Source: Flavobacteriales bacterium (lineage in GTDB: Bacteria; Bacteroidota; Bacteroidia; Flavobacteriales_F; PHOS-HE28). From it: a stretch of DNA of 64,000 bases. Below the pieces are notes generated by a model that worked only from the letters and a program-made list of their open reading frames with translations, ran no database searches and had not been told where the DNA came from. Of this stretch, positions 4,271 through 22,404 are shown one piece after another. The position numbers were made by a program, and so were the translations under genes. Location: assembly GCA_024103275.1 (NCBI GenBank), contig JAGFIV010000050.1, positions 1-64,000 on the forward strand, given 5' to 3'. Within the stretch, counting starts at the first letter, position 1, and each line of letters opens with the position of its first letter.

Positions 4271-5455
4271 TCAGTCGTTGAAGCGCGCTTCGAGCGCGGC
4301 GATCGCGGGCAGGGTCTTGCCCTCGAGGAACTCGAGGAAGGCGCCGCCGCCGGTGGAGATGTAGCCGACGTCGGCGGCGATGTCGAACTTCGCGATCGCT
4401 GCCAGGGTGTCGCCGCCGCCGGCGATCGAGAAGGCCTCGGAGTGGGCGATCGCCGAGGCCATCATCTTGGTGCCGCCGGAGAACTGCGGGTACTCGAACA
4501 CGCCGACCGGGCCGTTCCAGACGATGGTGCCGGCGTGGGCGATGATGTCGGCGAGCTTGGCCGAGCTCTTGGGGCCGAAGTCGAGGATGCGGTCGTGCGG
4601 GCCGACCTCGTCCACCGAGATGCGGTTGGCGCGCGCGAGCGCGGAGACCTCGTCGGCCACCACCACGTCCACCGGCAGCGGCACCTCGGCGCCGCGCGTC
4701 TTCATGATGTCCATCACCTGCTGGGCCTCGCGCACCATCTCGGGCTCGGCGAGCGACTCGCCGATGCGCTTGCCGGCGGCGAGCAGGAAGGTGTTGGCGA
4801 TGCCGCCGCCGACGATGAGCTGGTCGACCTTCTCCGCCAGGGTCTTCAGAATGCTGAGCTTGGTCGACACCTTGGCGCCACCGACGATCGCCACCAGCGG
4901 GCGCTTCGGCGCGTGCAAGGCCTTGGTCAGGGCGTCGATCTCGGCGCCCATCAGCATGCCGGCGCAGGCGATCGGGGCGAAGCGGGCGATGCCGTGGGTG
5001 GTGGCCTCGGCGCGGTGGGCGGTGCCGAAGGCGTCATTGACGTAGACGTCGCACAGCGCGGCCATCTTCTTCGCCAGCGTCTCGTCGTCCTTCTTCTCGC
5101 CCCTATTGCAGCGGCAGTTCTCGAGCAGCACGATCTCGCCCGGCTTGAGCTCGAAGCCGCCGTCGACCCAGTCCTGGACCAGCCGCACCGGCCTGTCGAG
5201 GAGCTGGCCGAGGCGCACCGCCACCGGCATCAGCGAGTCCTCGGCGCGCAGCTCGCCCTCGGTGGGGCGGCCGAGGTGGGAGGTGACCATCACCGCCGCG
5301 CCCTTGTCGAGGCAGTAGCGGATCGACGGGATCGAGGCGCGGATGCGGGTGTCCTCGGTGATGTTGCCGGCCTCGTCCTGCGGCACGTTGAGGTCGGCGC
5401 GGATGAAGACCCGCTTGCCGGCGACGTCGAGGTCGGCGAGCTTCTTGACTTGCAT
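4271..5455 (-). CDS. pgk: Phosphoglycerate kinase
   Basis: Interconverts 1,3-bisphosphoglycerate and 3-phosphoglycerate with ADP/ATP. The 394-aa product starts [20 protein letters not shown], with substrate-binding [24 protein letters not shown] and [14 protein letters not shown] in order. The C-terminal nucleotide domain has [30 protein letters not shown] and the GGGD loop. Upstream of the ATG, CTGGAGCC provides a ribosome binding site. Only 2 bases separate it from the stop of the epd-like gene, so the two are co-transcribed. A strong hairpin follows it. The epd-pgk adjacency matches the epd-pgk-fba order of E. coli. Confidence 0.95.
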
Positions 5456-5457
5456 GA

Positions 5458-6567
5458 TCAGGCTCCAGAGTGGGCAGTGCGAAAATCGGTGGTCGCCGGC
5501 GCGGCTGTCCACAGGCCGCGCCAGTGACGGGTCAGGTCGAGCATGCGGTTGGCGAAGCCCCATTCGTTGTCGAACCACACCATCAGGCTGAGCAGGCGGG
5601 AGCCGCTGACCTGGGTCTGTCCGCCGTCGATGATCGCGGAATGGGGGTCGTGGTTGAAGTCGATCGAGGCGTGCGGTTCGTCGGACCAGGCCAGCAAGCC
5701 GGCGAAGGGGCCCTCGGCGGCCGCGCGCAGCAGGCGGTTGACGCTGGCGGCGTCGGTGTCGCGGCGCAGCGCCAGCACGAGGTCGATCGCCGACACGTTG
5801 TGGGTCGGCACCCGGATCGCCTTCGCATGCACCTTGCCGGCCAGGGCCGGCAGCAGGCGCTCGACGCCGCGCGCGAGCCCGGTCGACACCGGGATGATCG
5901 ACTGCATCGCCGAGCGGGTGCGCCGCAGGTCGGTGTGGTGGTAGCCGTCGATCAGCGGCTGGTCGTTCATCACCGAGTGCAGGGTGGTGAGCAGGACCTG
6001 GTCGAGGCCGAACTCGCGCTCGAGCAGGGCGAGCAGCGGCACCACCGCGTTGGTGGTGCACGAGGCGTTGGAGACGAGGCGCGCGTCGGCGGGCAGCTGG
6101 CGGTGGTTGACGCCGACCACCACGGTGGCGTCGACATCGGCGCCGCTGTTGCCGGGGTGCGACAGCAGCAGGCGCGGACAGCCGGCGTCGAGGAAGCGCT
6201 GCAGGCCGCGGCGCTCGCCATACTGGCCGGAGCACTCGACCACCAGGTCGATGCCGAGCGCCGCCCAGTCGAGCTCTTCGGGCGTGGTGGCGTGGCTCAC
6301 CGCGATCGGCTCGCCGTCGATCAGCAGGCCCGCGGGCGTGGTGTCGACGTGGCCCGGGAAGCGGCCATGGGTGGAGTCGAACCGGGTCAGGTAGGCGATG
6401 CTGGCGAGATCGGCCGGCTCGTTGATCGCCACCACCCGGTAGTCGGCGCGGTGGGGCGATTCGTGCAGCGCGCGCAGGTAACAGCGGCCGATGCGGCCAT
6501 AGCCGTTGATCGCGATGCGGGTCGGCGCGGCGGGCGCCGGAGGGGCAGGGGGGGGAGAGGCTTTCAT
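5458..6567 (-). CDS. epd: Erythrose-4-phosphate / glyceraldehyde-3-phosphate dehydrogenase family, Epd-like
   Basis: NAD-dependent dehydrogenase of the GapA/Epd family. The nucleotide fold begins [15 protein letters not shown] after a proline-rich leader; the catalytic cysteine is in SNASCTTN and the partner histidine in [11 protein letters not shown]. Several stretches follow E. coli Epd rather than Gap[33 protein letters not shown] and [19 protein letters not shown]. Context agrees, because in E. coli epd precedes pgk and fba. Epd makes 4-phosphoerythronate for pyridoxal phosphate synthesis, but some betaproteobacterial members of this clade may serve as the glycolytic enzyme, so the substrate is uncertain. 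The start lies only about 10 bases from a promoter core and has no Shine-Dalgarno, suggesting a nearly leaderless message. Confidence 0.85.
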
Positions 6568-20392: not shown

Positions 20393-21808
20393 TCAATCCT
20401 CCGCCGCGCTGCCGTCGCCGCACATGCGTACCACCTTGGGCGTGAACGAACCGATCACCTCCACCAGGTCGCGTTGGCTTCCCATCACTGTGGCGATGTC
20501 CTTGTAGGCCATGGGTGCTTCGTCCAGTCCACCGCCGATCAGCGTGATGCCGTGGTTCGCCAGGTGCTGCTTCACGGCACGGGGGTCCAGCGTTTCCTTG
20601 GCGCGGGTGCGGCTCATGGTGCGGCCCGCGCCGTGGCTGGCCGAGGCGATGCTTTCCGCCACGCCCGTTCCGCGCACGATGTAGCCGGGTGCCGTCATGC
20701 TCCCGGGGATCACGCCGAGCACGCCCTTGCCTGCGGGCGTGGCTCCCTTGCGGTGGACGATCACCTCCCTTCCGGCATGCACTTCCTTCCATGCGAAATT
20801 GTGGTGGTTCTCCACCATGGCGGCGGGCCGTTCACCCAACGCCCGGGCGATGCGTTCATGGATCTGGTGGTGGCAGGCGGAGGCGAAGTCCCCGGCGAGG
20901 TTCATCGCGGCCCAGTACTCCTGGCCCTCGGCACCGTCCAGCGATAGCCATGCGAGGTTGCGTGCCTCGTCGGGCAGCCTGCAATGTTCCTTCGCCACAC
21001 GGGTGTAGTGCGCCGCGATGCCCGCGCCCAGCCCGCGCGAGCCGGAGTGCGACAACAGCGCGAGGTATTCGCCCGGCGGCAGCCCGAATTCATTCCCCGG
21101 ATCGGTGATGGCCACCACGCCAAACTCCACGAAGTGGTTGCCGCTTCCACTGGAACCGATCTGGCGCCATGCGCGGTCCTTCAGGTGCTTCACCACGGGA
21201 ATGGTGCCGAATTCGGCGCGCTCCAGCACGGGATGGTCCATGGGCCTTTCATGCACGGCGCGGCCGAAGCGGGTATGCTCCACCAGCAGTCGCCCATGGT
21301 CGGCGGCGTGGGTGGACAGCACGGCCGGCGGGATGTTGAAGATGCTCAAGCACATGCGGCAGCCGATGTCCACGCCCACGCCGTAGGGGATCACCGCGTT
21401 CTCCACGGCCAGCACGCCGCCGATGGGCAGCCCGTAGCCATGGTGCGCATCGGGCATCAATGCACCGGCCACCGTGACCGGCAGCTTCATGGCCACCTCC
21501 ATCTGGTGGATGGCGCCCTGCTCGATGTGCTCACGCCCATAAGCGCGATAGTCCTTGCGCGGCACCAGGTCGAACAGGCCCTCGCGCGTGCGGTCGCGGC
21601 CGGTAAGCGCATCGGCGATCGGCGCGTACGGCCCATGCTCCCCGAAGGCCGCGGGATCCGCTGCAATGCGCGCCAGCAGCGCCAGTGCTTCTTCCTTGTT
21701 CATCTTGCGGGGATGCTTCAACATCACGTTGATGGCGATGCCGATGGCGCGTCCCTCCGGGAAGCCCGCGGCGATCAGATCCTTGCCCTGCAATTCCAAT
21801 CCTTCCAT
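20393..21808 (-). CDS. rtcB: RNA ligase RtcB (3'-phosphate/5'-hydroxyl splicing and repair ligase)
   Basis: Joins RNA 2',3'-cyclic-phosphate or 3'-phosphate ends to 5'-hydroxyl ends using GTP and Mn2+. 471 aa, longer than E. coli RtcB (about 408). Metal and nucleotide residues are visible: VDIGC (147-150, followed by RMC where GMC is usual), GNHF (223-226), SHSGSRG (253-259), ENHHN (333-337), HRKGATPA (352-359), PGSM (369-371 region) and the guanylylated histidine in ASHGAGR (His about 392). The start MEGLELQGKDL is chosen because upstream codons run into tRNA-like genes. It lies only 26 bases after the His-like tRNA on the same strand, so all three are likely one transcript. No rtcA, rtcR, Ro or prfH gene is nearby. 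Confidence 0.94.
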   Translation of the reverse strand: MEGLELQGKDLIAAGFPEGRAIGIAINVMLKHPRKMNKEEALALLARIAADPAAFGEHGPYAPIADALTGRDRTREGLFDLVPRKDYRAYGREHIEQGAIHQMEVAMKLPVTVAGALMPDAHHGYGLPIGGVLAVENAVIPYGVGVDIGCRMCLSIFNIPPAVLSTHAADHGRLLVEHTRFGRAVHERPMDHPVLERAEFGTIPVVKHLKDRAWRQIGSSGSGNHFVEFGVVAITDPGNEFGLPPGEYLALLSHSGSRGLGAGIAAHYTRVAKEHCRLPDEARNLAWLSLDGAEGQEYWAAMNLAGDFASACHHQIHERIARALGERPAAMVENHHNFAWKEVHAGREVIVHRKGATPAGKGVLGVIPGSMTAPGYIVRGTGVAESIASASHGAGRTMSRTRAKETLDPRAVKQHLANHGITLIGGGLDEAPMAYKDIATVMGSQRDLVEVIGSFTPKVVRMCGDGSAAED

Positions 21809-21834
21809 TTTCCGTAGCAAACGTTCATTTCCCT

Positions 21835-21906
21835 GGTGGATGGACGGGGTCGAACCGTCATCTGCAGCGTCACAAGCCGCCGCGCTTCCATTACGCCACA
21901 TCCAAC
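21835..21906 (-). tRNA. tRNA-His-like gene (GTG anticodon), imperfect acceptor end
   Basis: Folds by eye into a cloverleaf. D arm GCGT/GCGC with loop AATGGAA (A14, GG18-19, A21); anticodon arm GCGGC/GCTGC with loop TTGTGAC giving anticodon GTG (His); 4-base variable loop AGAT; T arm GACGG/CCGTC with loop TTCGACC; acceptor TTGGATG against CATCCAC. A G at position -1 faces C73, the tRNA-His hallmark. The oddity is a U1:C72 mismatch in place of G1:C72. CCA is not encoded. It lies 7 bases after the Phe-like gene and 26 bases before rtcB. It could be a working tRNA-His, a decayed copy, or an RNA serving RtcB. Confidence 0.75.
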
Positions 21907-21913
21907 CCGTTCG

Positions 21914-21984
21914 TGGAAGAGGATGGGATCGAACCATCACCTGCCGGGCTTCAACCGGCCGCTCTACCCTTGAGCTGCTCTTCC
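21914..21984 (-). tRNA. tRNA-Phe-like gene (GAA anticodon) with C8 and G37
   Basis: A 71-base cloverleaf with perfect stems: acceptor GGAAGAG/CTCTTCC, D stem GCTC/GAGC with a very short loop AAGGGTA, anticodon stem GCCGG/CCGGC with loop TTGAAGC (anticodon GAA), 4-base variable loop AGGT, T arm GATGG/CCATC with loop TTCGATC, discriminator A73. Two nearly universal positions are wrong: U8 is C, and position 37 after a GAA anticodon is G rather than A. The acceptor starts GGA rather than the usual GCC or GGC. CCA is not encoded. The perfect helices argue against decay, while C8 and G37 argue against an ordinary elongator tRNA-Phe. Confidence 0.72.
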
Positions 21985-22404
21985 TTCCCCATTTGCATCC
22001 TCCCGTTTTTCCGACCATCCGATCTTCCGGTCTGCTGATCGATCTCACGGGTCATAAATCAGCGAACCCGGCCTTTGGGGACCGGGTTCGCTGCCGAGGA
22101 TGCCAGGGTCACATCACTGCATGGAACACCGGTTTACAGATGCGCTGGACTGTTGTTGCCCATCGAGCCTGCACCGTTCACGGCTAAATCGATTGCTGCT
22201 CGCGCAGTCTGCTTCCGTGTGGGGCAGGCGGCCCGGGTGGGGATGCATCAGATGTGTCATGGTCCGTGCGCCGGTGTGGTTTCTTCTTTTTGCGTGGCGC
22301 GGTAAGTGCGCCAGGCTCTATTGACGTGCCGGAGCCGTGCAGGTTGCCTGCGCCGGAAATTTTTCCTGTCGTACCATGCCCGGGCTTCGGCACATAAGGC
22401 TTCC
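21985..22404. other. 420-base non-coding gap between the SDR gene and the tRNA-like pair
   Basis: Apart from the hairpin at 22061-22092 I see no gene here; open frames across it are high-GC shadows. It must hold the promoter for the tRNA-like/rtcB unit, but no TAnnTTTG-type box stands out in the 76 bases between hairpin and first tRNA-like gene. Confidence 0.5.
22061..22092. terminator. Strong 11-bp intergenic hairpin
   Basis: AGCGAACCCGG and CCGGGTTCGCT pair perfectly around a 10-base loop. On the minus strand it is followed by GATTTAT. It probably ends the transcript of the SDR gene upstream on that strand, separating it from the tRNA-like/rtcB unit. Neither side has a strong T tract. Confidence 0.6.

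Follow-up and report, generated by a model that had tools for sequence, protein, structure and literature searches.

The tRNA-rtcB locus

What do two divergent tRNA genes do directly in front of an RNA ligase gene, i.e. do they form a repair unit with it, and what would they contribute? In the 64 kb stretch of DNA analysed here (the window), rtcB, encoding a 3'-phosphate RNA ligase of 471 aa plus stop codon, occupies 20393..21808 of the minus strand. It is preceded on the same strand by divergent extra copies of tRNA-His(GTG) at 21834..21906 and tRNA-Phe(GAA) at 21913..21984 and by a conserved leader block at 22060..22133, giving the 5' to 3' order leader block, tRNA-Phe, tRNA-His, rtcB. The gaps measure 6-7 nt between the two tRNA genes and 25-26 nt between tRNA-His and the rtcB ATG, and no protein gene separates the tRNAs from rtcB. 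ARAGORN detected exactly two tRNA genes in the whole window, i.e. Phe and His, which score 61.1 and 50.1 bits, respectively, with Rfam RF00005 (gathering score 29), and the RtcB ORF matches Pfam PF01139 at 269 bits. The minus-strand gene order and spacings given in an earlier, sequence-only reading are thus confirmed by ARAGORN, Rfam and Pfam.

The start codon of rtcB (ATG at 21808) was fixed by alignment with nine relatives and is kept in 10 genus members, and this 10-member alignment contains no internal stops. The window RtcB can be aligned to the Pyrococcus RtcB structures 1uc2/7lfq across the catalytic region and retains the motifs GVDIGC, GSGNHF, HSGSRG, HRKGAT and SHGAGR. Rfam scans revealed no known element besides tRNA in the window and matched RF00005 alone at ten rtcB loci. 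The leader block contains a strong terminator-like hairpin at about 22060-22093 (fold z = -3.1), and a scan for sigma-70-type promoters, with a model that does not cover Bacteroidota promoters, gave no match.

Housekeeping copies of tRNA-Phe and tRNA-His are located on other contigs of the same genome (L009 and L020, respectively), which makes the window pair redundant. As the sequence-only reading had observed, both RNAs depart from normal tRNA at key positions, the differences from the housekeeping copies lying at positions 8, 37 and 38. In tRNA-Phe, C8 replaces U8, the D-loop is short and the anticodon loop reads UUGAAGC (G37, C38) instead of CUGAAAA. In tRNA-His, the loop reads UUGUGAC instead of UUGUGGU and the acceptor stem carries a U1/C72 mismatch; this mismatch and the change of U8 could impair tRNA function. 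G-1 and C73 are the HisRS determinants of tRNA-His, and A73 and the GAA anticodon are identity features of tRNA-Phe; all of them are retained, as is the GUG anticodon of tRNA-His. Both RNAs show what is expected of functional tRNAs, i.e. a cloverleaf with compensatory changes, an anticodon, U33 and identity elements, and deviate at U8 and positions 37-38.

Selection on the tRNAs

Between genomes, tRNA-Phe is 86-100 % identical, while the fourfold sites of rtcB are only 48-62 % identical (97 % versus 61 % for G000 and G032). Conservation of tRNA-Phe against near-saturated fourfold sites indicates that it is under purifying selection. In the stems of tRNA-Phe, 100 % of cells are paired and four pairs have changed on both sides (10 genomes), and the corresponding values for tRNA-His are 96.6 % and five pairs (seven genomes). 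For neither set did any of 500 shuffles attain the observed percentage of paired cells or the covariation score, and sliding the register gave values far below those of the true register in both; the sets are small and related, which inflates the test, and these results count as support rather than proof.

Comparison within the genus

Full-length rtcB was found in 10 of the 45 genomes of the genus, and in all 10 it is preceded by an array of 2-10 tRNA genes on the same strand. The array abuts rtcB without an intervening gene in nine of them, and a PcfJ-like gene lies in between in G064 (L138). One of the conditions under which the sequence-only reading would have failed, namely relatives with ordinary His/Phe clusters here and rtcB elsewhere, does not apply, since the relatives share the tRNA-rtcB arrangement.

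In its complete form, the operon has the order leader hairpin, tRNA-like RNAs, slipin (SPFH/Band-7), tRNA array and rtcB. Slipin, recognized by Pfam Band_7, lies 5' of the array in every array-bearing genome except the window genome and G032, both of which keep just leader, Phe, His and rtcB, in the same order. The only homologue of slipin in the window genome is a distant one (28 %) located elsewhere, and the tRNA-like RNA found near slipin is also missing from the loci of the window genome and G032, the search of the window having yielded Phe and His alone.

Array size varies from two tRNAs (window, G032) to about 10 (G064), and the order is almost collinear across genomes, with losses: Arg-Gln-Glu-Asn-Asp-Ile-Lys-Phe-His. 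A Tyr-like gene, read by eye, closes the array in G022 and G061, so that the isotypes found between slipin and rtcB in the genus are only Arg, Gln, Glu, Asn, Asp, Ile, Lys, Phe, His and Tyr, one gene of G064 having an ambiguous anticodon. In the relatives, the arrays cover about ten isotypes, the tRNAs folding as cloverleafs with proper anticodons and, in nearly all cases, U33. Their sequences have diverged from the housekeeping copies and are similar to one another; global identities between array and housekeeping tRNAs of other isotypes were apparently inflated by aligner settings and were not used.

The ligase gene itself is frequently lost, as indicated by remnants in three genomes, i.e. 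C-terminal fragments in G028 (L145:4143-4370) and G066 (G066:C3:392729-393022) and a remnant with stops adjoining an intact array in G065 (L147:291-413). Array and/or slipin are thus present with only this remnant in G065, and with no rtcB found in G012 (76 % complete).

The leader block was matched in nine other genomes of the genus, eight of which are array carriers, the exception being G015. Its hairpin lies directly before tRNA-Phe in the window, and at the far 5' end in complete operons, i.e. upstream of a further tRNA or tRNA-like gene, the tRNA-like RNA and slipin. The comparison shows that the window locus descended from, or shares its origin with, the larger leader/tRNA-like RNA/slipin/array/rtcB operon, and the simplest reading is that an internal deletion in the lineage of the window genome and G032 would have spared leader, Phe, His and rtcB. 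That the leader was retained next to Phe-His-rtcB after such a deletion supports, but does not prove, a single transcription unit. Candidate roles for the leader block are the terminator of a neighbouring gene or an attenuator. Upstream of the hairpin, a short ORF of about 40 codons, conserved as judged by eye, is present in G061, G017, G060, G062, G065 and G003, ending in ..FQGFDEKPCP.. in G061 and G017; it was not seen in the window. Such an ORF at the start of the operon, followed by a terminator-like hairpin, could possibly represent a leader peptide with attenuator.

Linkage beyond the genus

A further 78 rtcB loci from outside the genus, nearly all titled Bacteroidota, were scanned with the tRNA covariance model (E<0.01, 4 kb upstream). 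Same-strand tRNA or tRNA-like matches lay ≤4 kb upstream of rtcB at 29 of the 78 loci and opposite-strand matches at none of the 78, and 104 of 107 matches at these loci were on the rtcB strand. Considering also the linkage in all 10 genus members, the association between tRNA genes and rtcB is not due to chance. Arrays of 10-13 tRNAs were found near rtcB at L037, L101, L108 and L109, the arrays of other families being broader in isotypes than those of the genus, and WYL-domain regulators and the RNA-repair polymerase-beta RlaP are neighbours at some loci of other genomes.

At Hymenobacter rtcB loci (L051-L060, L063 and L071, about 5000-5850; L085:3874-4250), one to three tRNA-like RNAs lie upstream, many of which have a UACUUCG motif at the place of the D-arm and a normal T-arm.

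tRNA-like RNAs upstream of slipin

A structured RNA lies 5' of slipin in the genus and at most other slipin loci examined. It contains tandem permuted tRNA-like modules, each with the T-arm first, then an acceptor stem that a short loop closes, and the D-arm last (e.g. L142:7900-8145, L148:2450-2690, L101:3690-3830, L108:10950-11125 and L049:4170-4330, in addition to about 15 further loci). In the permuted arrangement, 6.2 of 7 acceptor positions are paired (30 junctions), compared with 4.0 of 7 for conventional pairing (testable at 16). Rfam recognized only tRNA fragments at the scanned loci of this RNA, and in the operons of the relatives these slipin-linked tRNA mimics are without a full anticodon arm. 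Since bacterial Y RNA is likewise a circularly permuted tRNA mimic (PMC11472068), a Y-RNA-like partner for slipin is conceivable, and by this analogy the permuted RNA may be that partner.

Relation to known RNA-repair systems

RNA-repair systems combining slipin (SPFH/Band-7) and RtcB with a 'novel tRNA-like molecule' were reportedly described by Burroughs and Aravind in 2016 (NAR 44:8525), and the permuted RNA is probably this molecule. The operon of the relatives resembles such systems in joining a Band_7 slipin, RtcB and a tRNA-like RNA, and RlaP, as in slipin-RtcB systems, is a neighbour at one further locus. Of these components, the window contains RtcB; in contrast to slipin-RtcB systems, slipin and a cognate tRNA-like RNA, i.e. 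the tRNA mimic, are missing, and complete tRNAs with anticodons are present.

The strongest functional analogy comes from Anabaena sp. PCC 7120: translational stress lifts the repression of rtcB, slipin and a silent array of 26 tRNAs at the same time, and the array helps survival (PMC10272220, PMC9938897). As in this trn array/TrcR regulon, where redundant tRNA array, rtcB and slipin form one stress response, the clustered tRNA genes of the window are redundant with the housekeeping set. The Anabaena genes, however, are unlinked and repressed by TrcR, whereas here they are physically joined.

The rsr-yrlBA-rtcBA operons of Proteobacteria (PMC7790460) also combine rtcB with a tRNA-mimicking RNA and respond to damaged tRNAs. 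Unlike these, the window genome harbours no RtcR, RtcA or Ro, and its RNAs are full tRNAs rather than Y RNA. A search of the whole genome at E<=0.001 for RtcR, TROVE/Ro, RtcA and archease was negative, which extends the absence of RtcR and Ro stated in the sequence-only reading to the genome level; control by RtcR or Y RNA/Ro was therefore rejected. Phages, finally, possess tRNAs with loop changes at anticodon-nuclease sites (PMC10264068), and phage tRNA sets with tRNA-repair ligases likewise place spare, loop-altered tRNAs beside an RNA ligase, but the window holds a chromosomal bacterial operon with an only distantly similar RtcB.

Repair plus replacement and its alternatives

On balance, we favour reading the locus as an RNA-damage-response operon in reduced form, consisting of a leader hairpin, two reserve tRNAs and rtcB for the repair of cut tRNAs, and we consider this somewhat more probable than all other readings combined. 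Upon damage to tRNAs or translation, the cluster would be transcribed as a single unit, and tRNA-processing enzymes would release free, chargeable and usable Phe and His tRNAs, which would refill tRNA pools depleted by cuts in the anticodon loop. Halves bearing 2',3'-cyclic phosphate and 5'-OH ends would be joined by RtcB. The proposed RNA-repair unit equipped with tRNA genes of its own is supported by one co-directional cluster with the same arrangement in relatives. Among the roles that the sequence-only reading had left open, replacement tRNAs fit best, given the multi-isotype cloverleaf arrays with anticodons, U33 and compensatory changes, while decoys or sensors are unsupported for Phe and His.

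According to the latter idea, the tRNA-like RNAs would either bait anticodon nucleases or act as a damage sensor, in that rtcB is controlled through their cleavage within the leader transcript. Such a role would suit tRNAs that probably belong to the 5' leader of rtcB, are separated from it by no protein gene, are dispensable for translation because of the housekeeping copies, are unusual at positions 8, 37 and 38, and are accompanied in the same operons by slipin-linked mimics without a full anticodon arm. However, up to ten isotypes with matching anticodons, U33 and identity elements are unnecessary for it, the arrays differ freely in size and content next to a constant rtcB, and altered loops speak against good bait, so that we regard it as unlikely. 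Slightly less likely still is a decaying remnant, in which slipin and most tRNAs were lost and the two remaining tRNAs are relics of little function. The absence of slipin and the 5' tRNAs from the window and G032, the mismatch in the His acceptor stem and the rtcB remnants of G028, G065 and G066, pointing to an easily lost system, agree with decay, but tRNA-Phe is far better conserved between G000 and G032 than the fourfold sites of rtcB, rtcB is intact, and both genomes keep the two tRNAs and the leader in identical order.

A domesticated counter-defence island of phage or plasmid origin, carrying tRNAs and ligase, is very improbable. Jumbo phages do bear tRNAs and RtcB (PMC7824862), some IMG/VR contigs (L152, L153, L156, L158, L159) carry rtcB with 8 to 14 or more tRNAs ahead of it and the distribution in the genus is patchy. 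Judged by RtcB similarity, however, phage origin is weak, i.e. phage RtcB is <60 % identical in all 622 records and the best full-length IMG/VR match reaches 58 %, and slipin, WYL and RlaP as neighbours match the setting of cellular RNA-repair operons. Least credible of all is an ordinary tRNA duplication for codon supply that came to lie beside rtcB by coincidence: both RNAs do score as tRNAs in Rfam, but the strand-specific linkage inside (10/10) and outside the genus (29/78 versus 0/78), as well as sequences diverged from the housekeeping copies and alike among themselves, already disfavour it.

With repair plus replacement as the preferred reading, the altered 37-38 loops may turn the spare tRNAs into poorer nuclease substrates. 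Where a retrieved housekeeping copy allowed comparison (i.e. for isotypes other than Glu and Ile), every array copy of His, Asp, Gln and Arg differs in the loop at 37-38, as do 10 of 11 Phe copies, and no Lys copy does. Evasion of anticodon nucleases, as proposed for phage tRNAs, is a possible explanation by analogy. The changes could also reflect relaxed constraint, which is conceivable because the loops of array tRNA-Lys are unchanged, one array tRNA-Phe (G065) has lost U33 and a repeat is inserted in some array tRNAs. Colicins E5 and D or PrrC attack six of the genus-array isotypes (PMC10264068, PMC9223846), an overlap that is suggestive only, given the broader arrays of other families. A point against the model is that RtcB2-PrfH fails to protect Escherichia coli from these two colicins, both of which cut tRNA (PMC9223846).

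It is tempting to speculate, as a tentative extension that we hold to be doubtful, that Bacteroidota possess a modular defence against tRNA-cutting toxins, combining an RNA ligase, nuclease-resistant replacement tRNAs altered at positions 37-38 and 8, and a slipin-bound circularly permuted tRNA mimic, with the window as a minimal two-tRNA form working without slipin. If so, cells would, besides mending cut tRNAs, hold linked, sequence-altered spares, a cellular counterpart of the nuclease-insensitive tRNAs of phages, and tRNA arrays, the function of which has long been unclear, would be physically linked to RtcB repair. The two-tRNA form is compact enough for testing in a laboratory host.

Viral contigs and a dispersed repeat

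In viral-classed IMG/VR contigs (L150-L159, especially L152, L153, L158 and L159), rtcB of 33-53 % identity is preceded by 8 to 14 or more same-strand tRNA genes. A palindromic repeat, GCCTGCCTGCCGGYAGGCAGG, has no match in the window genome and lies inside the T-arm region of array tRNAs in G003, G060 and probably G062 (L033 His and Lys, L124 Asp, L148:5135-5226). The insert was considered as an RtcB-spliced intron and rejected, the motif being dispersed with 4 to 20 matches per genome on both strands.
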